Shown here piece after piece: positions 16,261 through 58,943 of a DNA stretch of 60,000 bases (positions are counted from its first letter, which is position 1; each line of letters opens with the position of its first letter). Under the pieces are notes generated by a model. It had not been told where the DNA came from. It did no database searches and saw only the letters and a program-made list of their open reading frames with translations. The translations under genes were made by a program, and so were the position numbers. Source of the DNA: Membranipora membranacea (lineage: Eukaryota; Bryozoa; Gymnolaemata; Cheilostomatida; Membraniporidae). The stretch spans positions 24,430,001 through 24,490,000 of the forward strand of contig OU612072.1 of the NCBI GenBank assembly GCA_914767715.1, given 5' to 3'.

Positions 16261-17331
16261 GTAAGAACGGACATAAAGTCAAGCTGGCATGTATGTGTGG
16301 CCACTCCCTACTATGCTGGTTCTAAGAGAGGGGTACTATACAGGGTATCATAGGGTATTTTTTTTATTGGAACTCATAAGATATATTGTGACTTAGTTTG
16401 GGGATTGCAAAGCAGTCTTAAAAGAAGGACAGCAAAAACACTTGAGATGTTCAGTACATCCTACACATCTGATTTTCATGTTTCTGTAATCGAATCCTGA
16501 AAACTCAACACACCATGGCATGGTACAAACTCGCTGTCCCAAACGCATGTCACAATATATATCTCTGGCCGATAGTGTCTTAGAAAATAGAACCTTTGGG
16601 CATAGTTCTATTTTATTCTCGCCAACAGCCATTCAGCCTCTTCATCTGCCAACATTGACCCTTGTAAAGGAGACAGTCAGGCTTTGTAAATAGGGAATGT
16701 CTTCGGATCTCAATAACTTTCAAACGCTCAGAAAGCAGCTGCATGGGGTCTTTGCGGTTCATAACAGTGTGGGATTCAGACAAAAAACTGCTTGACTGGT
16801 TTTAGGTACATGAATAAGTGTTTTTACAAATTTATTTTAGTCAGTTCATTGACTAGCATGAGCGTAAATATAATGGCTGCTAATGGTTCTGTTAAATCCC
16901 CATAAATGAGAATCATGTGTAGTTTGGGCTGTGACTTCGATTGAAGACTATTGTAAAAAGTCTCCTGACAATGGAACTATATTTATTTTGAATTTATGTG
17001 GAAAAGAATTGTAACTCTAAGTCTCTTGAAGTGGTAGCTTAATAGGTTGGCACAGCACTAGGCCCTACGGATACTTCATAGCTCATAGATGAGAAGCGAG
17101 GACAATTTCTAACACTATACATAATTTTATCCCAGTAGTGCTCTGAATTTTCAAAACGTGAAAATATCACATAATTACTGCTGAACTAGCTGCCAGACTG
17201 TATATTGCTGTGGTCCTTTCGTAGTCTTTAAAGTCACCATTTTGATAGATATAGATATACTTATGATTGAACTGAAGTTTGAAAAGAATTCTGTTAAATT
17301 CAGACTATCATATTTTTATGATGCTTTCCAG

Positions 17332-17874
17332 CCATTGAGAACTTCAGACTCCGAGCACTCTCAACTGCTATGTACCCTAACTGATGCTAATGCCGATCAA
17401 ACAAAGTCAAGCAGCATGTGTAGAACGTGTACTCTGATCAGCTTCATCGATTGTGCAGATCGCACAGCACACCACATCGTCGTTCTTGCGAATGGGCAAG
17501 TTCAATCTGTAACAAACTATGCAAACAAATTCAAGGATTGCTTTTGGAAGATCTCCACTATACAAACAAAACAGCTATGCATGTACTCTGCGTGGTTTGA
17601 GGACTTAGAGGGCCATATGGAAAAAGCAGAACCAGATTTACATTCAGCACCCCCACGTCATTTCATTTTAAGTGTACCTGATAACCTCAGTGACGGAACG
17701 GAAATGAATCCAGCCAATAACAGGATCTCAGCCGACGAATCTGATAACAAAGAAAAAGTCGTCTACCGCTACAGGAACCTTCAGATCGATATAGAAGATG
17801 GCTTTATACAGTTCACATTGAGGTCAAACAAAAACAAGCTTGATGCAGTTAGTGGCTTTTTTGAATCGGAGGAT
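17332..17874 (+). CDS. C-terminal exon 1, unknown domain
   Basis: Acceptor gctttccag, donor gtaagt, phase 0 at both ends, 181 codons. I do not recognise the fold. The N-terminal half is rich in Cys and hydrophobic residues (SMCRTCTLISFIDCADR), and a short block (YRYRNLQIDIEDGFIQFTL) looks like beta strands. The frame stays open upstream to about 17242, but there it is intron with no ATG in a good context. Large size and phase-0 joins to the next three exons make this a confident coding segment. Confidence 0.7.
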
Positions 17875-18012
17875 GTAAGTAGTTTTGAGTTTAAGTGCAA
17901 AAGCAAGCTTGCTTCAAAGAATTTATTAACATGTCATTCCATAAATACTTGCCACTTAACATGGACCATTATTAATTTGCACAACTAACAACTTATTGTT
18001 ATCTCATTGCAG

Positions 18013-18543
18013 GGTTCTGAGTGCGAATTTTCACATGACTCAGATGGTGGTGAAGCCAGTACACATCAGGAAGACCCTGTGGAGGCCATGGATATTTGTG
18101 GGGACACCCTCCCACTCACAGTGGTATCAATTTCAAATGACAACATTTCTCCTTCAGTCTCACTGTTTTATCTTGTGGCCGGTGAGTTAGCAGCAGACAT
18201 GGAATTCAGTAATGATCACTGGTTGATTTCAACAAAGCGACTGAAGAATGATGCACTACATGAACAAGTTCAACAACACTGCAGAGATAATTTCCTAACT
18301 AAGCTTGACAAACGCCACCTTTTTGAGAAAAACACCCCTGGATACGCAGTAACTGAAAGGTTACCAAGCTACGGTAATCAGATAGCCAGTGTACCCTATC
18401 GGAGGGAGGACTTAGGTGGCCGAATTTCATACAGATTTTCGCACTCTGAGAATGATGAGGTGTTTGTGAGGATTTTTGAGCCTGCCAGTCCATCTGATAC
18501 TGATATAGGGGTCCCCGGGAGCCCTCCTAAGCGAACAAAGATG
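18013..18543 (+). CDS. C-terminal exon 2, unknown domain
   Basis: Acceptor tctcattgcag, donor gtaaga, phase 0 at both ends, 177 codons. It starts with an acidic linker, then a probable globular stretch (SLFYLVAGELAADMEFSND..., DNFLTKLDKRHLFEKNTPGY) and ends with a basic KRTKM before the donor. No known motif was recognised. Confidence 0.7.
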
Positions 18544-18745
18544 GTAAGAATTTCTCATTCTCATTAAATTTCTTAATATTTGCTGAACATATACAGCGAA
18601 CATTGCCATTCTTGAAATATCTTTCATCCCCTGAAAGGAATCCTTGCTAATTCTTATTGCTCATAATCACATTGTATACATATCTCATACAAAGATAATT
18701 CCCTTACAAATGTTACTGTGTTCCATGTACCTTGTATTTTCTCAG

Positions 18746-19363
18746 ATTCTGCTTGATCCACAAAGACGGATATCTTTGGAGGAAGAACATGAGACTGTAT
18801 TCAACCGGTTGCGGGAGTATGACAAGAGTGGCACTGACAGCACAGAATGTGAGCTTACAGTGATCACATCTATTATCTTGAAAGATGATGGACAACCTAT
18901 GACAGACATTTTTCTCATAAAAGGGATTGTTCTGGACAGTGGATGTAAGGACCTCATGAGGCTTGAAGAGAGGGAAACATCAGGATGGATGGTCACCACT
19001 CGTTGGATAACGAGTGAGGCACTGCACAACATTCTAGAGAGAAAGTGGTGCGAGGTGAACAGAAGTATTAGTCATGACAAGGATAAGTCTAAGCACAATG
19101 GAATCACTCGTGTCGGATTAATGAAGTTAGACACGATGAGTGAAGGCTGCCCTGATATTGATGTGGCTGCATGGAAAGGTTTCAACAGAAGGCTCAATGT
19201 GACAATCACATCATCCCACAGCAAGATAAGCTACCAGCATGCAAAGAACCACTTCGCTTTATCAACTCTAGACAAACAGTACATGGGTACCAGTGGGGAA
19301 CAAAAGTACAGTTACCATGAGAAAAAGGTTGTTACAAAAGTCTATGAACAAATGTGGTGCTTG
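18746..19363 (+). CDS. C-terminal exon 3, unknown domain
   Basis: Acceptor gtattttctcag, donor gtaaaa, phase 0 at both ends, 206 codons. Begins ILLDPQRRISLEEEHETVFN. It is charged, with alternating hydrophobic segments (TECELTVITSIILKDDGQP, FLIKGIVLDSG). The frame continues past the donor into intron until about 19492. I do not recognise the family. Confidence 0.7.
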
Positions 19364-19460
19364 GTAAAATCACACTTCAGTTCGATGTCTACAGCATTGT
19401 CATCAATATTTTTGTGTCTCCATATTTCTTCAGCTCAATTTAATATTCTTTTGCTTTTAG

Positions 19461-20834
19461 AGACCTGTAGGAGCTGCGGAGATAGAATGTAACCGAGTTG
19501 AGAAATGCATTGAAGGGCAGCTGTTGAGTGGTCGGAATGGAACTGTAGGAGCTGCAGAGATAGAATGTAACCGAGTTGAGAGATGCATTGAAGGGCGGCA
19601 GCCCAATGGGCGGAATGGAAAACAATCGGGCAACATATTACTGCTGAACATTCATCGAATCAGAACGAGGCTTTACAGGAAGTATGTGTCAAAAGAGACA
19701 AATGCATCAAAAGGGACAGGCGCATCAAAAGCGACAGGCGCGTCAAAGACGACAGGCGCGTCAAAGAACAGTTCTTTGACGACAGGCGCGTCAAAGAACA
19801 GTTCAAACTTATGTTTGTCTGTAGAAAATGAGCTCAAGGATATAGACGCTACATTTGCTTTTGTGTTCGAAGGCCATCTTACCAATATAGATCTTCCAGA
19901 AATGAGCTATCAAGATCCGCTTACTTGCTGGTCTAGTAGGGTTTTTGAGATTAACAATCTAGCAGTAGAGTCCGCTGTACAAGAGTACTGGGGGAAACTC
20001 CCAAATGACTTCAATGGAAACATGGCTCATTTTAAGCCTTTCCTAGAGTTAACAACGGACAAGTTTGAGGATGTGGAGATGGTGTTTAAAGGTGGCAATG
20101 CTTCTATAAATTATGATTTCTATCGAGATTGCAGACAAGGTGTTCTGCTCAATATGTGGAGCCATGGTACTCGCACAAGAGCTCTGCATAGCCAGATACT
20201 GGAAACACAAGAAGGAGCATCTCACATGGATGAAATCACCGAAAACCACTGTTCAAAAATGCCACTCATGGATCAGGACTGTGTCAAGAAAATGGTAGAC
20301 GCTCTTCAGCTACACGCTAAGCTGCCCACATCCTTTAGATATCCAACTATGGGTTTTTCCCACAGACTACTGCCACCACCTAATCGAGTAGGGTATCTAA
20401 GTAGTGATAGACAGCCCTTTCCCTTGGAAGGATGTCTCGTAAGGAACACCAGTGATCGGGCACATCTAAAATGCGCAAAGGAAAATGAGGCTGCTGTATG
20501 TCTTGATAATAAGTCTTTACAAGAGATCATCACAATACATAAAACTGCGCAAAGTTCAAGAATACCATCTAGCAGGGTGATGTCAGCCGAAAAGAGTGCA
20601 AAGACGACCAGGAGGCTGGACAACTCGTCAAGAATGCCTTGCCAGGACTTATCAGAGCAGATGATGGAGCAGAAAGAACAAAAAATTGCAGGCAATGGGT
20701 TTGTCAGCAACAAGGAAGATACTGCATGTGGCAGCAGGGACACCTCACCAGAACATATCGAGATGGATGCACAGCAGAAAATGGAAACACTGCCACTTAG
20801 CGGTGGAACAGAGGAACATGTGTCTGAGATATAA
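19461..20834 (+). CDS. Last exon, unknown domain with internal repeats
   Basis: Acceptor ttttgcttttag, phase 0, 457 codons and stop TAA. The start of the exon is an in-frame 78-base tandem duplication (GAAEIECNRVE(K/R)CIEG twice, 26 residues apart). It is followed by a minisatellite of 15-base units coding TGASK-type repeats (19700-19805). The middle is a mixed globular segment of unknown type, and the C-terminal 120 residues are polar and low in hydrophobics. An AATAAA lies about 130 bases after the stop. The gene probably encodes a RING E3 ligase with an unclassified C-terminal domain, if the phase chain from 8284 is right. Confidence 0.7.
   Translation, partial: RPVGAAEIECNRVEKCIEGQLLSGRNGTVGAAEIECNRVERCIEGRQPNGRNGKQSGNILLLNIHRIRTRLYRKYVSKETNASKGTGASKATGASKTTGASKNSSLTTGASKNSSNLCLSVENELKDIDATFAFVFEGHLTNIDLPEMSYQDPLTCWSSRVFEINNLAVESAVQEYWGKLPNDFNGNMAHFKPFLELTTDKFEDVEMVFKGGNASINYDFYRDCRQGVLLNMWSHGTRTRALHSQILETQEGASHMDEITENHCSKMPLMDQDCVKKMVDALQLHAKLPTSFRYPTMGFSHRLLPPPNRVGYLSSDRQPFPLEGCLVRNTSDRAHLKCAKENEAAVCLDNKSLQEIITIHKTAQSSRIPSSRVMSAEKSAKTTRRLDNSSRMPCQDLSEQMMEQKEQKIAGNGFVSNKEDTACGSRDTSPEHIEMDAQQKMETLPLSGGTEEHVSEI
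19465..19620 (+). repeat. In-frame 78-base tandem duplication
   Basis: ctgtaggagctgcggagata starts at 19465 and recurs at 19543 with few changes. The unit is 78 bases (26 codons), so the protein frame is preserved. The second copy decays after about 60 bases. Confidence 0.85.
19700..19805 (+). repeat. Coding minisatellite, TGASK repeats
   Basis: About six units built on acaggcgcgtcaaag, 15 bases each. Some are expanded by a gaacagttctttgacg block that contains a small inverted repeat (aaagaac/gttcttt). The stretch codes TGASK with variation and stays in frame. Confidence 0.85.
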
Positions 20835-35497: not shown

Positions 35498-35501
35498 TCA
35501 C
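35498..35501. repeat. Target-site duplication, left copy (TCAC)
   Basis: TCAC directly precedes the LTR at 35502 and is repeated directly after the other LTR at 45177-45180. A 4-base duplication fits Ty3/gypsy integrases. Confidence 0.8.
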
Positions 35502-35829
35502 TGTAAGGGTCTGCTGTCCTTACAAGTTGTGGTGGGTATTTGTGATCATTTAGAAGTACTACGCTACTTCGTTGCAACTTATTAACTGGTTTATTTGATA
35601 GTAAAACTTATATATATATATATGAGACATAAAATATCTAAACCAATAGTAATACAGCAGTTCATATGATGGTAACAAAATGTAATCAGGATACAGCGAG
35701 CAAATGAATATTCAATCAATTAATTTCGATGACAGCACAATCAGTCATGAATCTTGGCACATTCTTAACATGATGACATTAATGATGATGATATGAATTT
35801 GTCTACTCACATCTGATGTCATCCTTACA
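35502..35829 (-). repeat. 3' LTR of the gypsy-type element
   Basis: Starts tgtaaggg and ends ccttaca, so the ends are also short inverted repeats. 328 bases, and by eye identical to the copy at 44849-45176, including the TA microsatellite. Confidence 0.92.
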
Positions 35830-35840
35830 CCTCCCCTCTC
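35830..35840 (-). other. Polypurine tract
   Basis: On the minus strand gagaggggagg lies directly against the 3' LTR, where plus-strand DNA synthesis is primed in LTR retroelements. Confidence 0.8.
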
Positions 35841-37544
35841 AGGCGAAGCCGATAGAGTTTGTTGTATCTTGTCGTAATGTTAGCTTCTGGAATTGTTGAG
35901 TAGTTGGTAGTCGATGATGTAGTTGGTGAAGATCTATTGTGGTCAGGTAAGGGGGGGGGGGGGAGTTTTGGTTCTTGTAGGTTTATCTCTCAGCTTAGAT
36001 TGTTCGTTGTTGTTGTTTGGTGTTGTTGGGGATTTCTTGGTATGTTGGTTGTTGATGAGGCTGCTGTTTGTTGATGTGGTGTTGTTGATTCTTAATCAGC
36101 CTTCAGTGTTCATCTCTGGTGCATTCTGTTGATGTATCAGGAGTTGTCCTCTTTTACTGTAGGAGAACATGACTTGTCTTAGTTGTGTAATGAAGGTTAT
36201 TAGGTTGGGTAGACTTCATTGTTTGTGCCATACTTCACTAAAATTGTACTGCCTTTTCAACTCAGGGTTTAACGCTTCCGCTGTGTATACTGGATTACTT
36301 TCGGTTACCATCATAGGGATCAGTCGCACTAGTATGGTTTTACTCAAGAAAGTCCGAAGGACTATTCTGTCTCTGAAAGTAATAAAATGTATTCATTAAA
36401 AATATTAATCAGCTAATCTACATGTAAATGTTCAATGTAAAGAATATTATGTTATGCATTGGTTGTATCCGATATAAAGATATTAAAATTTTATAGATCA
36501 TTTAATTATGAAGGTGATTCATGCCACTAAATACATGAGGAATGCAATTTCTTTTTGTTTTTATGGTTGTCTATCAATAGAATGTATCCCTCCCCTCTCA
36601 AATTTCAATGTCAATATGTCATATCTTTAAACTTAACTTAAGGGTTATTATTCCACTCCATCTCTTCTCCGATCCAGTCATACTAGAGGGTTTCATCACT
36701 CAGACCATCCATTACAATGTCCTTCACATTCCACTACCATGCCGATTCATCCTTCACTCCATCGGAAATCCAGGTGCTGAATGCACACAGGTACAGCCCA
36801 TCTTGACAATCAAGAGCTGTGACACACACCAGAGATGGAAGTCTTCGGCAGACCAGTAGTAGGAGGCGCCAAACTCCTCTGGCTTCTTTATCCTATATAC
36901 GACCATCTCTTTGAACTCGGTGAGGTCAGAAGAAAGATTCCAGATCCACGCAGCACTGTTTTCCATGTCCACAGTGTGCGATGTCTCCATCCAAGCAATT
37001 TTCCAGTCCAGGTCCCGCCATACCACTCGTCCATAGAGTGTGAAGATTCCAAATCCAGGCAGCACTGTTTTGCATGTCCACAGTGTGCAATGTTTCCATC
37101 CAAGCAACTTTCCAGTCCAGGATACGCAATACCACTCCTCCATAGAGCATCAAGACTCCAGATCCACAGAAGAGAGACTGCTCAATCCAAGTGGCCAGCC
37201 AAAAGAGTGCACAACAACTCAAAACGCACTCAAAATATTCAGGTGGGACCAATTTCGTCTTAGATACCAATTCTCTTTTCTTTTATTTTATTTTTATTTA
37301 TTTTTTTGTTGTTGTAATAAGCACATGTGATAATTTTGGATATTAATTGTGGGTAATAATTTTTTTGGGCACAATTAGATGTCAATTGAATAACACATCG
37401 TTCAGCCAGACATCACCAATGTTATTGTATATGCCCATGCCGTAGCAATGAAGCAGTTAGTTTATAGCGGTTATTATTAAGTCAGATACATTTATAAATT
37501 GAATAATAATTGCATAAGCTGTCATAAGTGTATGTGCGAAGGGA
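35841..37544 (-). other. Long non-coding 3' segment of the retroelement
   Basis: About 1.7 kb between the ORF stop and the polypurine tract. It contains a G14 run (35950-35963) and a 109-base tandem repeat. A 129-codon minus-strand frame (36754-37143), rich in Trp, and a 142-codon plus-strand frame (36835-37263) overlap the repeat. Neither resembles a known retroviral protein. Confidence 0.6.
36945..37170. repeat. 109-base tandem repeat, about two copies
   Basis: Units beginning at ccagatccacgcagcactgt (about 36940) and ccaaatccaggcagcactgt (about 37049) align along about 109 bases. A third partial start (ccagatccacag) occurs near 37160. Copies differ by about one base in ten. Confidence 0.8.
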
Positions 37545-40500
37545 TTAGTTATTCCTAGCTCGTAGATTATAGCCATGTGAACTTGTCTTAGTAGAGTCAT
37601 CCTGAGCTGGTGTAGCGGAGTAAGAAGCCGGAACGGCCACAGCAGGATTAGTTGCTGGTTTCCTCTTTACAGATACATAGCTGGCAGGAGTAAAATCGGA
37701 TGTCAAAGGTGCCTTAGCTTTCTTCAAACGTACCAGGTGGGTAGTGAACTGAGTTCCCACTGGCAAACCAGTTGTGCCTAGTGCCCTAACATCAGCATTT
37801 AATCCATTCAACATAACAATCAGATAAGGCCCTTGATATGAAGAAGAAAATTTCTTAACATTGCCAATTGCCACATGGGGAACCTTGACGTAAACCACAT
37901 CCCCAACCTTATATTGATGTCCGTTAGTATTAAGATCATGGTAGTATTTATAGTTAGTTTGCGCACATTCCAAGTTATCCCTTGCCAATGCCCATGCAAC
38001 CTTCAAGGAATCATGCATTTCCTCAACGGGGTTTTTGTTTTCATTATAGCACACACGATCTACAACAGGTACAGCCAGCTCGAAGGGAATAGTTATTTCC
38101 CTTCCGCAACTCAGATACGTTGGTGTAAAGCCTGTTGAAGCATTCTCAGTGTTATTGTAGCTATGAGCAACATATTTGGAAAGCATATCCCAATTAGTCT
38201 GCGCCTTATCAATCATTGTAGCCATCAGATTGGAGAAACTCTGAAAAGAGCGCTCCACCTGCCCGTTAGTGCTTGCCATATAGGGAGTGCAGGTGCGCTT
38301 GTCGATGTTTAAAGTCTCTGCCAGTTTGTTCATTAGACCAGAAACAAATTCAGCCGCATTGTCCGAGACCAATATATTTGGACATCCATGAGGAAGTATC
38401 AAATACTCGATCATGCAATCAGCCACAGTCTCCATTTTGTGATCAGAAATTGGCCTCATGATTACAAATTTGGAAAAAGAGCACTGTAACCCTAAAATAT
38501 ACTTACTCCCTCTCTCTGTTAAAGGCAACGGACCAAGTATGTCAAAATGTACCCTGGCGAATGGTTTGTCCTCCGTTTCTAATGGTTGTAGAGGAAAGAT
38601 AGGGTTGAAAGGGCCCCTTTTCCTCTGATTGCACTGGATACAAGCAGCTATATATTCCGCAACATCCTTACTCATCCCAAGCCAATAATATTTCCTACTT
38701 AGTCTTTTGTATAAACGATTTCTCCCCACATGGCACCCAAATAATGAATTATGATACACATTCAACAAGTCAAATTTCATTATTTCAGGGACACATAATA
38801 AGGGTCTGAGAGCATCCAGCGGATTATAATATAATACGCCATCTTGCCTAACGTAATAACGTTTCTGAGCTAAGATATGCCTGCGCTCTACTGGAGAAAG
38901 ATTGATTGGATTTGTACCGTCTGTCAGCAACTCAATAATCTGTTTGAGGAATGGATCTGTAATTTGCTGTTCACGAAATTGCAGCAAATCATCCTTACTA
39001 CTAGCTAAGCACTCAGCAGTTAGCCCTATGACACATGAATCAGCTACTTCTATTCTAGAGAGAGCATCAGCCACATAATTTTCCTTGCCAGGTTTGTAAA
39101 TCACTCTCAAATTATACTCCTGAAGTTTTAATGAAAACTTGGCCAGTCTCGAGTTCTTGTGGTCGCATGTTAACAACCAACGCAGAGGTGAATGATCAGT
39201 TGTGACAATGGTTTCGTGTCCTAATATAAAATGCCTGAAGTGCTTGCAAGCTGCAACCACCGCCAACCCTTCTTTTTCATAAGTAGAATAATTTTTCTCA
39301 CTTTTGTTCAATACACGACTGTAATAACCGATTGGATGTAAGCCATCCTCAAATATCTGACATAGCTGTGCACCGATAGCAAAGTTCGATGCATCAGTGT
39401 GGATGTGAAAAGGTCTATCAAAAATCGGATAGCGTAAAACAGGATATGTTGAGAGTTTATCTTTCAAAACTCTGAAACTTTCAGAACAAGATCGCGTCCA
39501 GTCAAATGTAGCATCACTCTTAGTCAATTCCAACAATGGTTTTGCCAAATCTGAGAATTTGTGAATATATGTCCGATAATAGGACATAGCTCCTAGGGCG
39601 CGCTTGAGTTGGGTTATATCAGTTGGTTCTGGATAACGGTTGATTTTGTCAACCAGACCGGGTGCAGGCTTGCACCCAAATTCATTGTACACATTTCCCA
39701 AATATTGCACCTCAGATCTAGCCCATTTTGATTTTGCAGGATTGATCTTTACGCCATGTTTGATCAGCCTATCAAGAACTTGCCCAACTCTATGCATGTG
39801 GTTGTCTAAATTCCTATCACTAAATATTACAATGTCATCAAGAAAACATTGACAGGTCACCCACTGAAGGTTTGATAAAATCACGGACATTGCTCTCTGA
39901 AAAATAATACTGGAATTACAAAAGCCAAAAGGTACTCTCAAATAACGATACGTACCTTTATGAGTGACAAATGTCGATCGCTCCCTATCCTCAGGATTTT
40001 CCATTTTCAAATTCCAAAATGCCTTAATGAGATCAATAGTGGTAAACAATCCACTCTGACCGGCTAACATCTCCTTGATACTATCTGGGTGAGGTAATGG
40101 GAATGACAGGGTATGTGTTACGGCATTGACCTTTCTATAATCCTGCACAATTCTCAAATCAGTAGTCCCAGCCTTTTTAACAAGCAAACAAGGCGATGCC
40201 CAAACACTGGAATTAGGTGCCTTTTCAATGATATTATGTTTCAGCATTTTGTCAATTTCCTTATTCAGAGCATCTTTATAAGCTACAGGCACTCTATAAG
40301 GTTGGGATCTAACAGGTCTAGCATCACCAGTATCACAAACCCGTCCAGTCAATCCTTTTACCTCACCAACATCATACTTGTGAAAGGCGAACACAGACTT
40401 TTTAGTACCTAGAAAAGAAAGAAAACGCTTGCGTTCATGTGTGTTCAACGGTGATTTAGCTAAATCAATTCTAGAAATTGGATCCGCAGTCTCTGATTTA

Positions 40501-43500
40501 TTGTCTTCTTTGACTTTGCCATTCAATGTTTCATTCAGATTACTATCCTTTATTTGTACAGATTGCTGTTGAGTAACTGTGCCGAGTGGTGTGCCTTGAT
40601 ACACTTTGATATAATTGTCGGACACATTTATTACTCTACATCTGATCATTCCATCAGCTGGATTCATAGTTTTGGCAAACATAAGACCACCATGTACAAA
40701 GGTAGGTTCATACATAAGCTGTACTTTAGACTGCGGTCCTTTAAAACAAATCTTATTATCAGACTTTGGAGGGAAAATAACATCCCTGTCCGCAAACACA
40801 TTGCAGTACTCACGGTTTTCCACAGCATCCATTGATAAATCATCACCAGAAGTGACCTGTCCAGACTTCCTTTCCTCACCATTGAATGGCGTGAGGTGTA
40901 ACTTACCAGTGCTATAATCTAGCACAAGCTTCCCACAGTGGCGCAAATTATCAGCACCAAGTATTATAGGATATTTACATTCCCCAATCACTAAAAATCT
41001 GGCCCTGATTGGGCTCAACCCTGGATATGAAACAATCAAATACACCTCCCCAATTCCTTTAACCACACTACCCGAAACTGATCTTATGGATCTCATGGTA
41101 CTTGTTATCCTGCACTGAATCATTAACACTTTGCACATTTTCATTGTGATTGTCGATAGTTGTGCACCAGTGTCAAACAAGCATTGGTACAAGCCGTTGT
41201 CAATATTTAATTGAATGATCGATTCATGACGTATCCGTTGAAAATTGCATAACATTTCACCAACTGATATTTTCCTAGCTGCCCTGGCTTTCGCCCGCCG
41301 TACAGCTGCCAATGTGACTCTAGTGTTTGTCAAGGTTTTAGGTCTTGCCCTAGGTCTTACTCTACCACTGGCAGATGAAATTTCATTTAAAACAACAACA
41401 GTTGGCTTGGGTTCTGTAATTTCTGGTTGCTCATGGGAGGGTCCCGGTTGGGGATTAGTTTGCTGTGTAACATTGACATTGATGTTAGACTGCTCCGGTT
41501 TGTTATCTTTTCCATGATAATTTCCAAAGAAATAACGATTCAAATTATCCTTAGGATCCCCTACAAATTGTCTTGCGCCAGTACACATTCTAACTAATGT
41601 CCAACAAAGCCTGAATGTTACTAGTAAACAGCAAAAGAAAATCCATATCTGCTTCCAATCAACAACATCCAATCCAGAAAGGAATGAAAATAAACCGTCT
41701 TTGACCACATTATGTGAAAAGACTTGTGATTGCCCACCCTGATATTCGTCATTAGTATTGTCTGTAATGCCTATCAAATTCCCAAGTATCTTATGTTGAT
41801 ATTGCATGGCACCTGTCAAGTCATTCAATGTAAATTTTTCTCTAAATAAATGCCAATCATATAATAGTAGTTTATGTATGACAGGTTGACCAATATCATT
41901 TCCCAAATCAGAAAAATCAAGTGCTATCGTATTCAGCTTGTCAATGCCACTGGCCCTCCTGACAGTCCCATCAACATGTGCATAGAAGAATAATTCTCCA
42001 TCAATTACCATTGGAATCTCCTGATTTAATGCGCAATCAATGAGGCTTGGAGTGTCATGTAGAATGTTGTTATGAGGGTTTAACCACATAGTCCTGTTGG
42101 TGACACCTAATGAAACAGCCATTGGAATTCTTTTCGTGCATTGCTCTGGTGAAGAGATCATCTCATAGTGGTCTACTGGCTGACAAGGATAGATGGTTAT
42201 GAAATCATGTAGTTTCTGTGCATAAATGTATGAATTATTCAACAGATGTCTCGCAGCCAGAATAGGATGTTCATCAAGTGATACAAGTAAAAGATCAGCC
42301 ATCTTCATCATATTTTGACAAGTTAGCCTAAATGTCGTGTGAAACATCTGGTTAAAATTCTGTGAAACATGTATTTCAATTGCCTGTAGTCTAGAATTCA
42401 ATTCAGTCGCTAAAACAGTCCCCTCTATCTGTCGTTTCTCCCTTGTCTTAGTCAGGTCACCAACTTTAACTGCAACACCCTGGTCAGTTATGTCTACAAA
42501 CCCGCCACAGTCCTCGTTTTGCTGAATACGCTTTGGGTTTGCAAAAGTCAAGGCCAATTCCCCGTCATTTGATAGCCAAGTCCTGTCCTGTAGCTTTCCT
42601 TGATAGAATATATGCGGTAAGTAGAGACATTTTTCTTTTTCATTTTGTGTCCACAACAGTCCTGATTCATCAAACAAATTACAAAAACCTGAATGGTAGT
42701 CACAGTGAGCTGTGCTACCCACAGGACTCTGCATGTCCTCATCTTTACCATGTCTGATAAATACCACAGATTCATAGAGAAAAGCATTCTTTGATGAAAA
42801 TTCATAATCAGTGCAGCACTTAAATCCTGTGTGATACTCAAAATCAGTTGTAATTTGAGTTTGGTATATTCCACCTATTTCAGTCATGTCACCAAAAGGT
42901 GCCCTTTTAAATTGTACCATGTTTCTGCAAGTTTCCATTGTCACAAGTTCATTTGTGTGTGTAGTTGTCCTATTTCTATTCTCACCAAAAAATCCTGCAT
43001 GTGTTGTGATGTCAGTTCTGATTATTTTACAGTGATGTGCCTTGGATTTATATTGAATCAGATTTGGTTTGAACAAAGTCACATCCTGGTCTATTGGTGC
43101 ATGCAAGTCCATGTGGCCACGTTTGAGATCACAACCTGATAGTTTTGGCAGTCTGAATTTAGCAACCGGATGATCAGTTTTGCATATCATTGGTGTTGTT
43201 GTATCCACATTACCGAAAAAACCTAAGAGGGTCATACAAATAGCTAAGCTGACAAAACCCAGTCCAGATGTTTGTCTCGATTTGGAAATTTTTGTTCCAG
43301 TCCTTGTTTTCTTTGACACACCCTGTGGCGTGTCACTTGAAATTTCAGTGGTCACATTACTGTCGTTATGGTCCGTGTCATCAATCATATCAATAGCACA
43401 TGTGTCAAATAAACAGTTGTCAAACTCGTCATAATGCATGTTGTCTGTATTTTCAGATGGTTGATTAATATCTGGATCTGGAGGCTCCTGAGGGACCTGA

Positions 43501-44816
43501 GAATTGGCCATAGTGTGAGCACCACGACCTCCTCTGCCTCTGCCTCTACCACGTGCGCGTCCTCTAGACTGATTATAACCTCTATTATTATTATTATGTT
43601 GACTCTGTTGATAGTATGTCTTGGGACATTCCCTTGCATAGTGGTCAGGCGCATTGCAAACAAAGCAGCGCCTTTGTCCTTGTTTGTTTTGACTAGTGTT
43701 ACCGTTATACCCTCCCCGGTAATTTTGATTAGGGTTACTGTTGAATCCTCTGTTATAACTATCAAATGCATTTACGTTCAGCTGTGAAGCTTTTAGACCA
43801 GTTTCTGCCCCGCTGGCAGCCTGGTACAACTCAGTTAGAGTTTTATTGGTCAATGGCATAACTGCCTCCTTGATGCCCATTTTTAATCCCATTCTGAAAT
43901 ACAGCAAAATGAATGGAGATGTCTCATCTAAATCACTTTGAGCAACAGTTTTACGAAAGCGCTCAAAATAGGTTCCCACGCTTTCATTTGACTGTTGCTG
44001 CATGTTTGCCAGTTCCATGGCAGCCTGCTCGCCCCCTTTACCAGCTCTGACCTTTGAGCTGAATAGCTTTCTGATTAAACTGTAACTACCTGAGGCATTC
44101 TCCCTCACTACTTCTCTTAAATAGGTAGCTGCAAGATCTTTAACATACAAGCCTAGTAACATAACATGGTGCTCCGTAGGCACGTCATTCAGCAAGCAGC
44201 ATGTTTCAAATTGGGTCAGGAAAGATTCTACATCTTCATCTGACTTTGCAGTAAATTTGAGACCAAACTTTACCCAATCTTTCTTTCCTGAGTTATTTGA
44301 ATTACTGCTTGCTGAAGGATAACTCTTACCTGGGGTTGGTGTTTGTTTAACGATCAGCTGTGGCTGTGTCCTCAGGGGTGTATTGATAACTGGTGTTGTA
44401 GTCATCCGTTGCATTGCTGTCCTTGATCGTTCATTTGCCATTTTTGTCATCATCTGTTTTCCCATCTCATCCATTTGCTTTGTCATCTGCTCAGTGAGCT
44501 GTTTCATTAGCTGTTTTTGTTGAGCAGCAAATGTTAGTGTTAACTGCACAAGCTCCTCCTTCCTCGCTTCCTCTTGGGCCTGCATATCCTGCCTGATAAC
44601 TTCCATGTCATCATACATTTGTTGAAGAGCCTCGTCTACTGGCTCCTCTTCCTCCTCCTCGAGGTTGCGGTCGGCCTCCTCGCCACCGTCATATTCATTG
44701 CGGTCGACCTCCTCGCCACCGTCATTTTCGTTGCGGTCGACCTCCTCGCCACCGTCATTTTCGTTGCGGTCGACCTCCTCGCCACCGTCATTTTCGTTGA
44801 GATTTCCAGGATCCAT
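37545..44816 (-). CDS. Gag-Env-like-Pol polyprotein of a Ty3/gypsy-type element
   Basis: About 2423 residues without a stop. The start chosen is the ATG at 44816, just after the primer site; the frame also stays open into the LTR but has no ATG there. Domains (rough residues): acidic 11-residue repeats 5-52; Gag core about 170-340; CCHC knuckle 384-397 (CFVCNAPDHYAREC); Arg/Gly-rich tract about 410-430; hydrophobic internal signal about 518-537; ectodomain-like Cys-containing region with NRT sequons; furin-type REKR at 792-795; membrane anchor about 1054-1078; aspartic protease DTGA near 1215; reverse transcriptase with FLDD near 1658; RNase H near 1806; integrase with HHCC finger 2021-2062, D-D-35-E catalytic triad and GPY/F module near the C-terminus. 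No chromodomain. The Env-like class is not identified. An ORF this size must be processed; how the lumenal part is separated from the enzymes is unknown. Confidence 0.88.
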   Translation of the reverse strand: MDPGNLNENDGGEEVDRNENDGGEEVDRNENDGGEEVDRNEYDGGEEADRNLEEEEEEPVDEALQQMYDDMEVIRQDMQAQEEARKEELVQLTLTFAAQQKQLMKQLTEQMTKQMDEMGKQMMTKMANERSRTAMQRMTTTPVINTPLRTQPQLIVKQTPTPGKSYPSASSNSNNSGKKDWVKFGLKFTAKSDEDVESFLTQFETCCLLNDVPTEHHVMLLGLYVKDLAATYLREVVRENASGSYSLIRKLFSSKVRAGKGGEQAAMELANMQQQSNESVGTYFERFRKTVAQSDLDETSPFILLYFRMGLKMGIKEAVMPLTNKTLTELYQAASGAETGLKASQLNVNAFDSYNRGFNSNPNQNYRGGYNGNTSQNKQGQRRCFVCNAPDHYARECPKTYYQQSQHNNNNRGYNQSRGRARGRGRGRGGRGAHTMANSQVPQEPPDPDINQPSENTDNMHYDEFDNCLFDTCAIDMIDDTDHNDSNVTTEISSDTPQGVSKKTRTGTKISKSRQTSGLGFVSLAICMTLLGFFGNVDTTTPMICKTDHPVAKFRLPKLSGCDLKRGHMDLHAPIDQDVTLFKPNLIQYKSKAHHCKIIRTDITTHAGFFGENRNRTTTHTNELVTMETCRNMVQFKRAPFGDMTEIGGIYQTQITTDFEYHTGFKCCTDYEFSSKNAFLYESVVFIRHGKDEDMQSPVGSTAHCDYHSGFCNLFDESGLLWTQNEKEKCLYLPHIFYQGKLQDRTWLSNDGELALTFANPKRIQQNEDCGGFVDITDQGVAVKVGDLTKTREKRQIEGTVLATELNSRLQAIEIHVSQNFNQMFHTTFRLTCQNMMKMADLLLVSLDEHPILAARHLLNNSYIYAQKLHDFITIYPCQPVDHYEMISSPEQCTKRIPMAVSLGVTNRTMWLNPHNNILHDTPSLIDCALNQEIPMVIDGELFFYAHVDGTVRRASGIDKLNTIALDFSDLGNDIGQPVIHKLLLYDWHLFREKFTLNDLTGAMQYQHKILGNLIGITDNTNDEYQGGQSQVFSHNVVKDGLFSFLSGLDVVDWKQIWIFFCCLLVTFRLCWTLVRMCTGARQFVGDPKDNLNRYFFGNYHGKDNKPEQSNINVNVTQQTNPQPGPSHEQPEITEPKPTVVVLNEISSASGRVRPRARPKTLTNTRVTLAAVRRAKARAARKISVGEMLCNFQRIRHESIIQLNIDNGLYQCLFDTGAQLSTITMKMCKVLMIQCRITSTMRSIRSVSGSVVKGIGEVYLIVSYPGLSPIRARFLVIGECKYPIILGADNLRHCGKLVLDYSTGKLHLTPFNGEERKSGQVTSGDDLSMDAVENREYCNVFADRDVIFPPKSDNKICFKGPQSKVQLMYEPTFVHGGLMFAKTMNPADGMIRCRVINVSDNYIKVYQGTPLGTVTQQQSVQIKDSNLNETLNGKVKEDNKSETADPISRIDLAKSPLNTHERKRFLSFLGTKKSVFAFHKYDVGEVKGLTGRVCDTGDARPVRSQPYRVPVAYKDALNKEIDKMLKHNIIEKAPNSSVWASPCLLVKKAGTTDLRIVQDYRKVNAVTHTLSFPLPHPDSIKEMLAGQSGLFTTIDLIKAFWNLKMENPEDRERSTFVTHKGTYRYLRVPFGFCNSSIIFQRAMSVILSNLQWVTCQCFLDDIVIFSDRNLDNHMHRVGQVLDRLIKHGVKINPAKSKWARSEVQYLGNVYNEFGCKPAPGLVDKINRYPEPTDITQLKRALGAMSYYRTYIHKFSDLAKPLLELTKSDATFDWTRSCSESFRVLKDKLSTYPVLRYPIFDRPFHIHTDASNFAIGAQLCQIFEDGLHPIGYYSRVLNKSEKNYSTYEKEGLAVVAACKHFRHFILGHETIVTTDHSPLRWLLTCDHKNSRLAKFSLKLQEYNLRVIYKPGKENYVADALSRIEVADSCVIGLTAECLASSKDDLLQFREQQITDPFLKQIIELLTDGTNPINLSPVERRHILAQKRYYVRQDGVLYYNPLDALRPLLCVPEIMKFDLLNVYHNSLFGCHVGRNRLYKRLSRKYYWLGMSKDVAEYIAACIQCNQRKRGPFNPIFPLQPLETEDKPFARVHFDILGPLPLTERGSKYILGLQCSFSKFVIMRPISDHKMETVADCMIEYLILPHGCPNILVSDNAAEFVSGLMNKLAETLNIDKRTCTPYMASTNGQVERSFQSFSNLMATMIDKAQTNWDMLSKYVAHSYNNTENASTGFTPTYLSCGREITIPFELAVPVVDRVCYNENKNPVEEMHDSLKVAWALARDNLECAQTNYKYYHDLNTNGHQYKVGDVVYVKVPHVAIGNVKKFSSSYQGPYLIVMLNGLNADVRALGTTGLPVGTQFTTHLVRLKKAKAPLTSDFTPASYVSVKRKPATNPAVAVPASYSATPAQDDSTKTSSHGYNLRARNN
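41583..43265 (-). CDS. Envelope-like glycoprotein segment inside the polyprotein
   Basis: This part of the polyprotein has the plan of a class I-like or related viral surface glycoprotein: an internal hydrophobic signal (43206-43265), several Cys residues, NxT sequons, a dibasic REKR cleavage site (42432-42443), an amphipathic stretch after the site, and a 20-25-residue hydrophobic anchor (41583-41657) followed by a basic, Pro-rich tail. In typical gypsy/errantivirus elements env follows pol as its own ORF. Here it precedes protease, in frame. I cannot assign its family from sequence alone. Confidence 0.7.
44655..44800 (-). repeat. 33-base coding tandem repeat at the Gag N-terminus
   Basis: Four copies of a 33-base unit encode NENDGGEEVDR (the last copy has NEYDGGEEADR). 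It is in frame and strongly acidic. Confidence 0.85.
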
Positions 44817-44830
44817 CTCAACTTTCAAAC

Positions 44831-44846
44831 CCCACTTCTGACACCA
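44831..44846 (-). other. Primer-binding site, tRNA-Leu-like
   Basis: On the minus strand tggtgtcagaagtggg starts two bases after the 5' LTR. It is complementary to a tRNA 3' end cccacttctgaca-CCA, which matches the end of metazoan tRNA-Leu(CAA). Assignment is from memory of tRNA ends. Confidence 0.65.
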
Positions 44847-44848
44847 GA

Positions 44849-45176
44849 TGTAAGGGTCTGCTGTCCTTACAAGTTGTGGTGGGTATTTGTGATCATTTAG
44901 AAGTACTACGCTACTTCGTTGCAACTTATTAACTGGTTTATTTGATAGTAAAACTTATATATATATATATGAGACATAAAATATCTAAACCAATAGTAAT
45001 ACAGCAGTTCATATGATGGTAACAAAATGTAATCAGGATACAGCGAGCAAATGAATATTCAATCAATTAATTTCGATGACAGCACAATCAGTCATGAATC
45101 TTGGCACATTCTTAACATGATGACATTAATGATGATGATATGAATTTGTCTACTCACATCTGATGTCATCCTTACA
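44849..45176 (-). repeat. 5' LTR of the gypsy-type element
   Basis: 328 bases, same sequence as the 3' LTR. On the minus strand it holds a TATA-like (TA)n run at 44956-44970 and, shortly after, AATAAA at 44937-44942, in the positions expected for promoter and R-region polyadenylation signal. Confidence 0.92.
44937..44970 (-). promoter_or_regulatory. TATA-like run and AATAAA in the LTR
   Basis: A TATATATATATATA run is followed about 14 bases later by AATAAA, on the minus strand. This spacing suits U3 promoter, then R with poly(A) signal. The TA tract is also simply a microsatellite, so the promoter call is tentative. Confidence 0.4.
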
Positions 45177-45180
45177 TCAC
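45177..45180. repeat. Target-site duplication, right copy (TCAC)
   Basis: Matches 35498-35501. Confidence 0.8.
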
Positions 45181-49540: not shown

Positions 49541-50390
49541 ATCAGGGTTCAGGGTTCAGGGTTCAGGGTTCAGGGACCCATAGAACTGAAGCCTTCCATA
49601 AAACAACCCGAAATGCGAATAATCGGAGCAAATCTGAAACTGTGATGCACATTGGCTTAGCTGCCCCCTTTATGACGGATTGACCAAAGGTTCGCTGCCT
49701 CACCTGTTTGTAGAATTGGCATGAGGTTACAAAGTAAAGCGCTGTGTCTTTGTCTTGACCACATTTTGGACAGTCTATTTTCATCTGTTAGCATGAATTT
49801 TTGCAAACCTTGTATGGCCCGTGACCAGTTACACCTGATATTAGGTTATTGATCACTGAGCGTCCAAAGCAGAGGAGCCCAGTTTCAAATCTAAGATTCA
49901 GTTCACTAATGAATGAATTTTATGATTACCATGTTCACAATTTCTCCAATAAATAATTTTCGAATCTTACCCCCACTCTTTGATTCTCTGCTTCATGACT
50001 GTTAGGGTTACAGAGAGTGCTGGTTCTGGACCATAAAAGTCCCAGGTAGAACCAGCATTCGCAAGTAAGTCCGCTTGTTTATTTCCTTAGATGCCAATGT
50101 GTCCTGGTGCCCAAATGACCTTGATATTATTTCTATGTCCAAGAAATTTCAGCTTGTTTCGGCATTCTAAGACCATTTTGGAAGTGTATGTGTATGTTTG
50201 ATTTAACCACATGCATTGCAGCCTGGTTATCAATATAGGTGGCAATATTTTGCCCCTTCTCAAAATTGAACAGTTGTCAGAGAATTTGAGACAGCAGTAA
50301 TTTAAGCTTATCTGTCCTACCAAGCATGAAGTTTATTTGTGACAACATTGTAAACAGAAACCTTATACGATAAAAATAATACATCAAACC
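49540..50390 (-). mobile_element. LINE fragment with RNase H and C-terminal zinc motif
   Basis: On the minus strand VIWAPGHIGI, then a stop in place of a Glu, then GNKQADLLANAG match the RNase H end WVPGHSGI-EGN-ADELA. Further on, MKIDCPKCGQDKDTALYFVT is the zinc-binding tail seen after RNase H in I/R1/Loa-type LINEs. Several stops show it is dead. The 3' end runs into a (ccctgaa)n tail at 49543-49575. Confidence 0.65.
49543..49575. repeat. Telomere-like heptamer repeat
   Basis: cagggtt repeated four times plus caggg, 33 bases. As (ttcaggg)n it resembles variant telomere repeats. It lies exactly at the 3' end of the minus-strand LINE fragment. Confidence 0.85.
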
Positions 50391-54004: not shown

Positions 54005-54077
54005 TGGAGGTACCGGGTATCGATCATGGTACCTCTCACATGCTAAGCTAGCGCTCTACCACTTGAGCTACACCCCC
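54005..54077 (-). tRNA. tRNA-Ala(AGC)-like, least degraded full copy
   Basis: Starts GGGGGTGTAGCTCAAGTGGT on the minus strand and ends with the acceptor partner and A73. The acceptor and D stems pair. The anticodon stem has one mismatch and the T stem two, so function is doubtful; it may be a pseudogene like its neighbours. Confidence 0.5.
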
Positions 54078-58680: not shown

Positions 58681-58871
58681 TAAAAAAGGCATTGAGAGTA
58701 GATATTTTTAATTTGTGACTGGCATGAATATGAAATGAAAGGAGTCCTCACCTTCATTTCTGGCAGCTCAAGAATCCATAAGACTCCGAACTAGTACTGC
58801 AGACTTGTCGTAATTGAATTAAATTTAAGATACTGGCATGTGCATACATTTTGCTACAAACAAAACCTCAG

Positions 58872-58943
58872 TAGCAGAGAGTGGTTTCGATCCACCGACC
58901 TCTGGGTTATGGGCCCAGCACGCTTCCACTGCGCCACTCTGCT
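58872..58943 (-). tRNA. Initiator tRNA-Met (CAT)
   Basis: 72 bases on the minus strand. It begins AGCAGAGTGGCGCAGTGGAA, the anticodon stem-loop is CTGGG-CCCATAA-CCCAG with the initiator-type G-C pairs, and the T-arm is GGTGG-ATCGAAA-CCACT, with ATCGA in place of the usual TTCGA as in eukaryotic initiators. The acceptor stem starts A1 and pairs fully. All stems pair, with a single G-T wobble in the T stem. A TTTT run (58862-58865, minus strand) a few bases downstream would end Pol III transcription. Confidence 0.95.

Follow-up and report, generated by a model that had tools for sequence, protein, structure and literature searches.

A Ty3/gypsy-type retroelement of the bryozoan Membranipora membranacea with an envelope-type segment between Gag and Pol in a single open frame

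In retroviruses and the known envelope-bearing retrotransposons, env is the last gene and is expressed apart from Gag-Pol or, in Atlas virus, occupies the end of a single polyprotein; in errantiviruses, such as gypsy and ZAM, env is a separate last gene expressed through splicing and, in insects, encodes a baculovirus F-like protein. Here we describe a long terminal repeat (LTR) element in a 60,000-nucleotide stretch of the genome of the bryozoan Membranipora membranacea (assembly GCA_914767715.1, contig OU612072.1, positions 24,430,001 to 24,490,000; hereafter, the window) in which an envelope-type segment (Env) is lodged between Gag and protease. The element resembles errantiviruses and other envelope-carrying Ty3/gypsy elements in the order of the enzymes, that is, protease (PR), reverse transcriptase (RT), RNase H (RH) and integrase (IN), and in the presence of what appears to be a captured viral envelope. 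It differs from them in the position of Env, which separates Gag from protease, in the fusion of all these parts in one frame, and in the affinity of the envelope, which is of the Monjiviricetes type.

A glycoprotein of broadly the same kind is found in Anakin, a mosquito element of the BEL/Pao family that, according to the available part of the report, has the GAG-PR-RT-RH-INT organization, with or without a chuvirus-derived glycoprotein; in that part of the report, no Env between Gag and protease is mentioned (PMC7642597). The excerpt of a 2023 study of arthropod genomes states that glycoprotein capture by Gypsy or Copia elements lacks clear evidence, and mentions gypsy fragments beside such glycoproteins and, for Bemisia tabaci, a complete element left unclassified (PMC10084718). 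Atlas virus of hookworm, as presented in an excerpt of its description, is similar to the element analyzed here in having an intact long polyprotein that includes Env and 100% identical LTRs, but belongs to BEL/Pao and shows the Gag-Pol-Env order, with a phlebovirus-like, class II Env coming last (PMC9094657). The window element, too, encodes all three of these parts in one frame, but its Env occupies the central position. As far as the respective excerpts go, Troyka has no envelope (PMC12440569), and Cer1 carries an extra frame downstream of pol (PMC10309623). The Gag-Env-Pol order is not described among the literature matches listed (titles and beginnings of abstracts, for example, the best 25 of 1,392 and the best 15 of 1,435), a coverage outside of which the main errantivirus survey falls; a summary of that survey says nothing about order (PMC12859917), and, at a guess, there is a minor but appreciable chance that this order has already been described in that survey or in a repeat database.

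The frame starts with an ATG at position 44816 and runs on the minus strand to 37545 without an internal stop, bearing out the open reading frame (ORF) of about 2423 codons described in the earlier note (all coordinates refer to the whole window, and residues are numbered from this ATG). From the base composition, about 150-162 stops would be expected, so that for a random open frame of 2423 codons, log10 P lies at about -67 to -73. In the remaining five reading frames of this region, there are 110-262 stops, and no opening exceeds 128 codons. A hidden Markov model (HMM) search with hmmscan in four pieces, complemented with motifs, yielded the domain order Gag-CCHC, Env, protease, RT, RNase H, integrase, whereas an NCBIfam search produced no match. 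All motifs named in the earlier note were recovered, namely, CCHC (residues 384-397), REKR (792-795), DTGA (1215-1218), FLDD (1658-1661) and the integrase triad D2092/D2152/E2188. The parts of the frame are as follows.

37545..44816, minus strand: Gag-Env-Pol single open frame, 2423 codons plus stop, from ATG
43881..44144, minus strand: Gag capsid-type domain, Retrotrans_gag PF03732 (residues 225-312, E=6.2e-6, above cut-off)
43626..43667, minus strand: CCHC zinc knuckle (residues 384-397; motif, and PF00098 at E=1.3e-4, above cut-off)
43206..43262, minus strand: hydrophobic stretch 1, proposed internal signal and first membrane crossing (residues 519-537)
41667..43199, minus strand: Env ectodomain (residues about 540-1050, 14 Cys)
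42030..43088, minus strand: match to PF24664, Monjiviricetes_fusion (residues 577-929, E=1.8e-9, 36.6 bits, cut-off 27)
42432..42443, minus strand: REKR furin-type site (residues 792-795)
41592..41648, minus strand: hydrophobic stretch 2, proposed membrane anchor (residues 1057-1075)
40941..41213, minus strand: aspartic protease (PF13975 E=9e-5, 23.4 bits, below the cut-off of 28.2; DTGA at 41163-41174)
39696..40181, minus strand: reverse transcriptase RVT_1 (E=3.5e-28; FLDD at 39834-39845)
39114..39500, minus strand: RNase H (PF17919 E=3.8e-35, PF17917 E=5.1e-34)
38616..38792, minus strand: integrase zinc-binding H2C2 domain (PF17921 E=2.9e-18)
38280..38567, minus strand: integrase core (PF00665 E=1.1e-9; D-D-35-E)

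The identity of the segment between the zinc knuckle and the protease comes from PF24664 (“Viral fusion glycoprotein”, chuvirus-type), the sole Pfam match of the Env piece up to E=1. The earlier note had taken this segment for an envelope, with a known non-envelope domain associated with Gag or Pol as the case against it; the HMM search thus upheld the former and revealed nothing of the latter, and no Pfam family pointing to a baculovirus F or gypsy-type envelope was found, PF24664 being the only match. The signal and anchor postulated in the same note correspond to candidate hydrophobic stretches on both sides of Env: a scan of the mean Kyte-Doolittle hydropathy over 19 residues, in pieces spanning the frame (maximum 0.26 at the seams between pieces), reached the threshold of at least 1.4 in the whole frame only at residues 519-537 and within 1048-1075. 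Residues 430-1200 contain six NxS/T sequons, three of these inside the ectodomain (540-1050).

Relatives were collected in three protein searches, in which a 1400-residue query scored on residues 490-1160 retrieved 1 protein, a profile of 2 retrieved 3 proteins, and a profile of 4, extending from Env to RNase H, retrieved 12 proteins (P0001-P0012); these searches restrict candidate length and require shared words and accordingly do not amount to a census. Six of the 12 (P0001-P0006) hold Env (BLAST E<=1e-3) and the remaining ones, P0007-P0012, match pol only. The join of Env to the Gag side is found in P0003, a 1182-residue partial protein with an Env 33% identical to that of the window over 349 residues, which contains, in one frame, a Gag-like part connected by a long linker to a hydrophobic stretch that is followed by Env. 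The join to the Pol side is represented by P0001, where Env is followed by the start of the protease, and by P0004, which comprises the C-terminus of Env, the protease and the first part of the RT in one frame; the Env of both is 65-68% identical to that of the window (for P0004, 65% over 136 residues, compared with 91% over 206 residues for the RT). Because P0001 and P0004 share an identical run of 302 residues, they represent one family. Neither join is present in P0002 and P0006, which cover the first hydrophobic stretch and the N-terminal part of Env, or in P0005, which covers the C-terminal part. Among the proteins found, none has this Env downstream of pol, and no confirmed DNA match of the relatives was obtained in viral_contigs, genome_contigs, phages or plasmids. 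The contention that a lineage shares this placement of the envelope is supported in that the placement occurs in more than one copy (Gag-like part and Env in P0003, Env and Pol in P0001/P0004); none of the relatives found has all three. P0003 is deposited as “MAG: hypothetical protein GY820_05480, partial [Gammaproteobacteria bacterium]”; the record is probably eukaryote DNA misbinned into a bacterial metagenome bin, and its contig was not found in scans of genome_contigs and viral_contigs.

Comparison with these relatives highlights the parts of Env that are conserved. PF24664 is matched above the cut-off by P0001 (47.6 bits) and P0005 (35.5 bits), and below it by P0002 (17.7 bits). At the place aligned with REKR, P0002 has RGKR, P0003 has RNKR and P0005 has RVKR; P0001 has only RSTR. 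Each of the 12 window cysteines between 545 and 878 is matched by a cysteine in all four relatives that span it, and Cys893 and Cys928 are conserved in both relatives with a residue there; for the 18 window cysteines in the alignment, 61 of the 64 cells are Cys, compared with 1049 identical cells among 1948 (54%) overall. This is the pattern that a conserved, disulfide-bonded ectodomain would give. Two other candidate matches of this region were rejected: an ATPTB1 protein that appeared in a single-sequence search of solved structures (2 matches, best E=0.08), and influenza haemagglutinin, which accounted for 55 of the 56 solved-structure profile matches, at E>=0.015 and at profile positions 4-58, that is, in the N-terminal end of P0003 and not in Env.

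The pol portion places the element with Ty3/gypsy. For RT and RNase H, the best match among solved structures is the Ty3 RT (4ol8, E=7.5e-55), followed by a different kind, “Enzymatic polyprotein” (1.1e-42), so that the enzymes are Ty3/gypsy-like. The hallmarks of Metaviridae (Ty3/gypsy) are all present, namely, LTRs with TG..CA ends and a short duplication, the PR-RT-RNase H-integrase order, and an RT that by solved-structure match is nearest to Ty3, and not to retroviruses or caulimoviruses. No BEL/Pao-specific Pfam family, such as Belpaoviridae would be expected to show, appears among the pol matches, and the errantiviral location of env downstream of pol is not observed, Env being situated between CCHC and PR. 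The protease assignment is based on DTGA and on P0004, which scores just over the PF13975 cut-off (28.4 vs 28.2); in the integrase, 35 residues separate D2152 from E2188, and the latter lies just outside the Pfam match.

The frame is enclosed in a complete LTR element of 9675 bp on the minus strand (35502-45176), flanked by GTGA on both outer sides, a 4-bp target-site duplication. The ORF given as the span in the earlier note is real, but the LTRs went unmentioned there, and the actual element extends beyond it on both sides:

45177..45180, minus strand: target-site duplication GTGA, upstream copy, in the flanking sequence
44849..45176, minus strand: 5' LTR, 328 bp, same sequence as the 3' LTR
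44830..44846, minus strand: putative primer-binding site TGGTGTCAGAAGTGGGG, beginning 2 bases past the 5' LTR
35841..37544, minus strand: 3' untranslated part, without a second env-sized frame, with a 109-bp tandem repeat
35830..35840, minus strand: polypurine tract GAGAGGGGAGG, abutting the 3' LTR on its upstream side
35502..35829, minus strand: 3' LTR, 328 bp, same sequence as the 5' LTR
35498..35501, minus strand: target-site duplication GTGA, downstream copy, in the flanking sequence

The two LTRs start with TGTAAGG, finish with CCTTACA and are 100% identical, which implies a recent insertion; the element is apparently young and intact. We presume that the primer-binding site TGGTGTCAGAAGTGGGG corresponds to tRNA-Leu. 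In 35841-37544, there is no minus-strand open stretch of more than 131 codons besides the main ORF, and since the longest one is of this size, no second env gene exists at the usual place. The same part contains the 109-bp tandem repeat (2.1 copies, 36934-37167) and a second copy of GAGAGGGGAGG (36589-36599), about 760 bp ahead of the 3' LTR. A 33-bp unit, repeated in tandem and in frame (4.1 copies, 44664-44799) where Gag begins, codes for acidic units of the NENDGGEEVDR type. The RNA fold near the Gag-Env join is ordinary (z -1.39; 18 of 200 shuffles equally good).

The orientation of the chain at the membrane can be predicted from the charges that flank the two hydrophobic stretches. The 20 residues upstream of stretch 1 are more positive than those downstream in all five sequences examined (upstream/downstream charges: window 6/1, P0001 4/3, P0002 4/2, P0003 4/-1, P0006 5/3), and for stretch 2, the downstream side is the more positive one in four of four (downstream/upstream: window 2/-1, P0001 and P0004, with identical sequence, 3/2, P0005 3/0); the margins are sometimes small, with one unit only for P0001 at both stretches and for P0004. 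Under the positive-inside rule, these charges place Gag and Pol in the cytosol. The proposal of a double membrane crossing with Gag and Pol on the cytosolic side, already put forward from the sequence, accordingly fits both hydropathy and flanking charge, short of a demonstration. Signal peptidase favors small residues near the cleavage site; by eye, a cut about two residues ahead of PMIC would suit P0001 and P0006, and the window less well.

Taken together, these observations make it reasonably probable, in our judgment, that the locus is a Ty3/gypsy-type (Metaviridae) endogenous retrovirus-like element in which a Monjiviricetes-type envelope was captured between Gag and Pol, yielding one polyprotein threaded through the endoplasmic reticulum (ER). 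Under this scenario, an ancestor would have acquired a Monjiviricetes (chuvirus-like) fusion glycoprotein, inserted past the zinc knuckle of Gag and ahead of the protease. The genomic RNA would be translated into a single Gag-Env-Pol product, residues 519-537 would act as an internal signal that directs the ectodomain into the ER lumen, and residues 1057-1075 would stop the transfer, so that Gag and Pol would both remain cytosolic. Cleavage by signal peptidase in the lumen, by a furin-like enzyme at REKR and by the element's own protease in the cytosol, on both sides, would liberate three products, namely, Gag, an Env of two chains anchored in the membrane, and Pol, with Gag and Pol brought 1:1:1 to the membrane that bears Env. 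More tentatively, with confidence that does not quite reach the balance point, we propose that this is a retroelement lineage with its own replication-assembly plan, one threaded Gag-Env-Pol chain per genomic RNA, a counterpart of the flavivirus polyprotein. Flaviviruses likewise have the capsid first, followed by an internal signal, an anchored envelope protein and then enzymes on the cytosolic side; they are unrelated positive-strand RNA viruses, with no LTRs, RT or integrase. The proposed scheme thus functionally resembles the C-prM-E-nonstructural polyprotein, without implying membership.

If this plan is real, the same membrane would receive equal numbers of capsid, fusogen and enzymes, and recruitment of Pol would depend on its being a cytosolic tail of Env instead of on Gag frameshifting or a separate Env message. 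An Env in the middle of the frame, with the Gag side retained at 33% Env identity and the Pol side in a closer relative, would demonstrate that env need not follow gag and pol, and would record the capture of a Monjiviricetes-type glycoprotein by the Ty3/gypsy family. It would also raise the question of how the polyproteins of retroelements thread through membranes and are cleaved there.

Several observations weigh against the single threaded chain. Among the proteins found, Gag, Env and Pol occur in one frame in the window alone and in no relative, and the window Gag has no match among P0001-P0012 at E<=1e-3. The Gag of P0003 is weakly identified, with CCHC below the cut-off (E=0.0078), PNMA at E=0.014 and all signals sub-threshold, and the Env-Pol join is known only from the closer family (P0001/P0004). 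Neither P0003 nor P0006 produces a PF24664 match on its own. AlphaFold2 models left the fold class unconfirmed, with a pLDDT (predicted local distance difference test) of 33.2 for the Env piece (4 alignment rows) and 36.4 for the ectodomain (7 alignment rows); these low-confidence models consist mostly of strands, with long helices past REKR, then strands, and helices toward the anchor, so that a gB-like class III fold is possible, although at such pLDDT the models are not evidence for it. The topology is predicted from hydropathy, with the flanking-charge bias. The remaining such points concern possible alternative starts, stops and splice sites, and bear on a rival explanation in which the domain order is real, but the proteins come from separate messages: Env or Env-Pol would begin at Met436, either through internal initiation or through splicing, and RT-integrase may be produced via a strong acceptor at 40408, with Pol spared the membrane-inserted precursor.

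43497..43511, minus strand: MANSQ at Met436, possible internal start of Env (A at -3, G at +4; P0001 has its first residue at the aligned position)

We regard this explanation as unlikely; the evidence in its favor is as follows. The sequence context of Met436 is favorable for initiation (A at -3, G at +4), and the first residue of P0001 aligns exactly with it; in P0001, Env-Pol may be a separate frame, or that Met may have been picked by the gene caller. The very strong acceptor-like site within the pol frame (first exon base at 40408) scores 15.4 bits, more than the maximum of 100 mononucleotide shuffles (14.8), leaving room for subgenomic messages, and the candidate donors at 44329 and 40906 would define introns whose lengths, 3921 and 498 nt, are divisible by three. 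In P0005, a stop soon past the anchor is possible; the protein ends 20 residues beyond its anchor on a contig of 5188 nt, where a stop is indistinguishable from a cut. On the other hand, the scoring matrix of the splice scan was crude, and the donors, at 10.7 bits, equal the mean shuffled maximum (10.7). In the 390 bases ahead of Met436, the sole acceptor above 3 bits scores 8.7, compared with a mean shuffled maximum of 10.9, and an acceptor 24 bases beyond Met436, at 9.6, is also below that mean. Furthermore, no stop separates Env from the protease in the window, so that an Env-only product would require proteolysis or a second intron, and in P0003 the Gag-like part and Env share one frame. 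By the same crude scan, splicing at 40408 could yield an RT-integrase message without Env.

Under a second explanation, which appears improbable, Env is no longer a working fusogen and was retained within Gag-Pol for targeting to membranes or as a receptor decoy. Its fusogenic capacity is indeed predicted from sequence, and the PF24664 matches stop at profile positions 384-440 of 653, with the C-terminal third undetected. Set against this, the first 12 ectodomain cysteines are kept in every relative that spans them, and diverged relatives still have both the anchor and the cleavage region; this conservation suggests that the whole ectodomain is under selection. That an env-derived fragment landed by chance in a gypsy element, or that the locus is an assembly error, can be practically dismissed: only one complete copy was seen, but identical LTRs enclose the whole element, neither join interrupts the frame, and the joins are present in other database records (P0001, P0003 and P0004).

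Five other long ORFs were scanned, and Pfam matches at E<=0.01 were absent from all of them. On the plus strand, 17242-20834 holds a partly G+C-richer run of four ORFs (186-436 codons), none with a Pfam match at that threshold, which are perhaps exons of a host gene. The window also contains a tRNA-Met gene (58871-58943, minus strand), a weak tRNA-like match (54005-54077, minus strand) and 4.9 copies of the telomere-like heptamer TCAGGGT (49542-49575).
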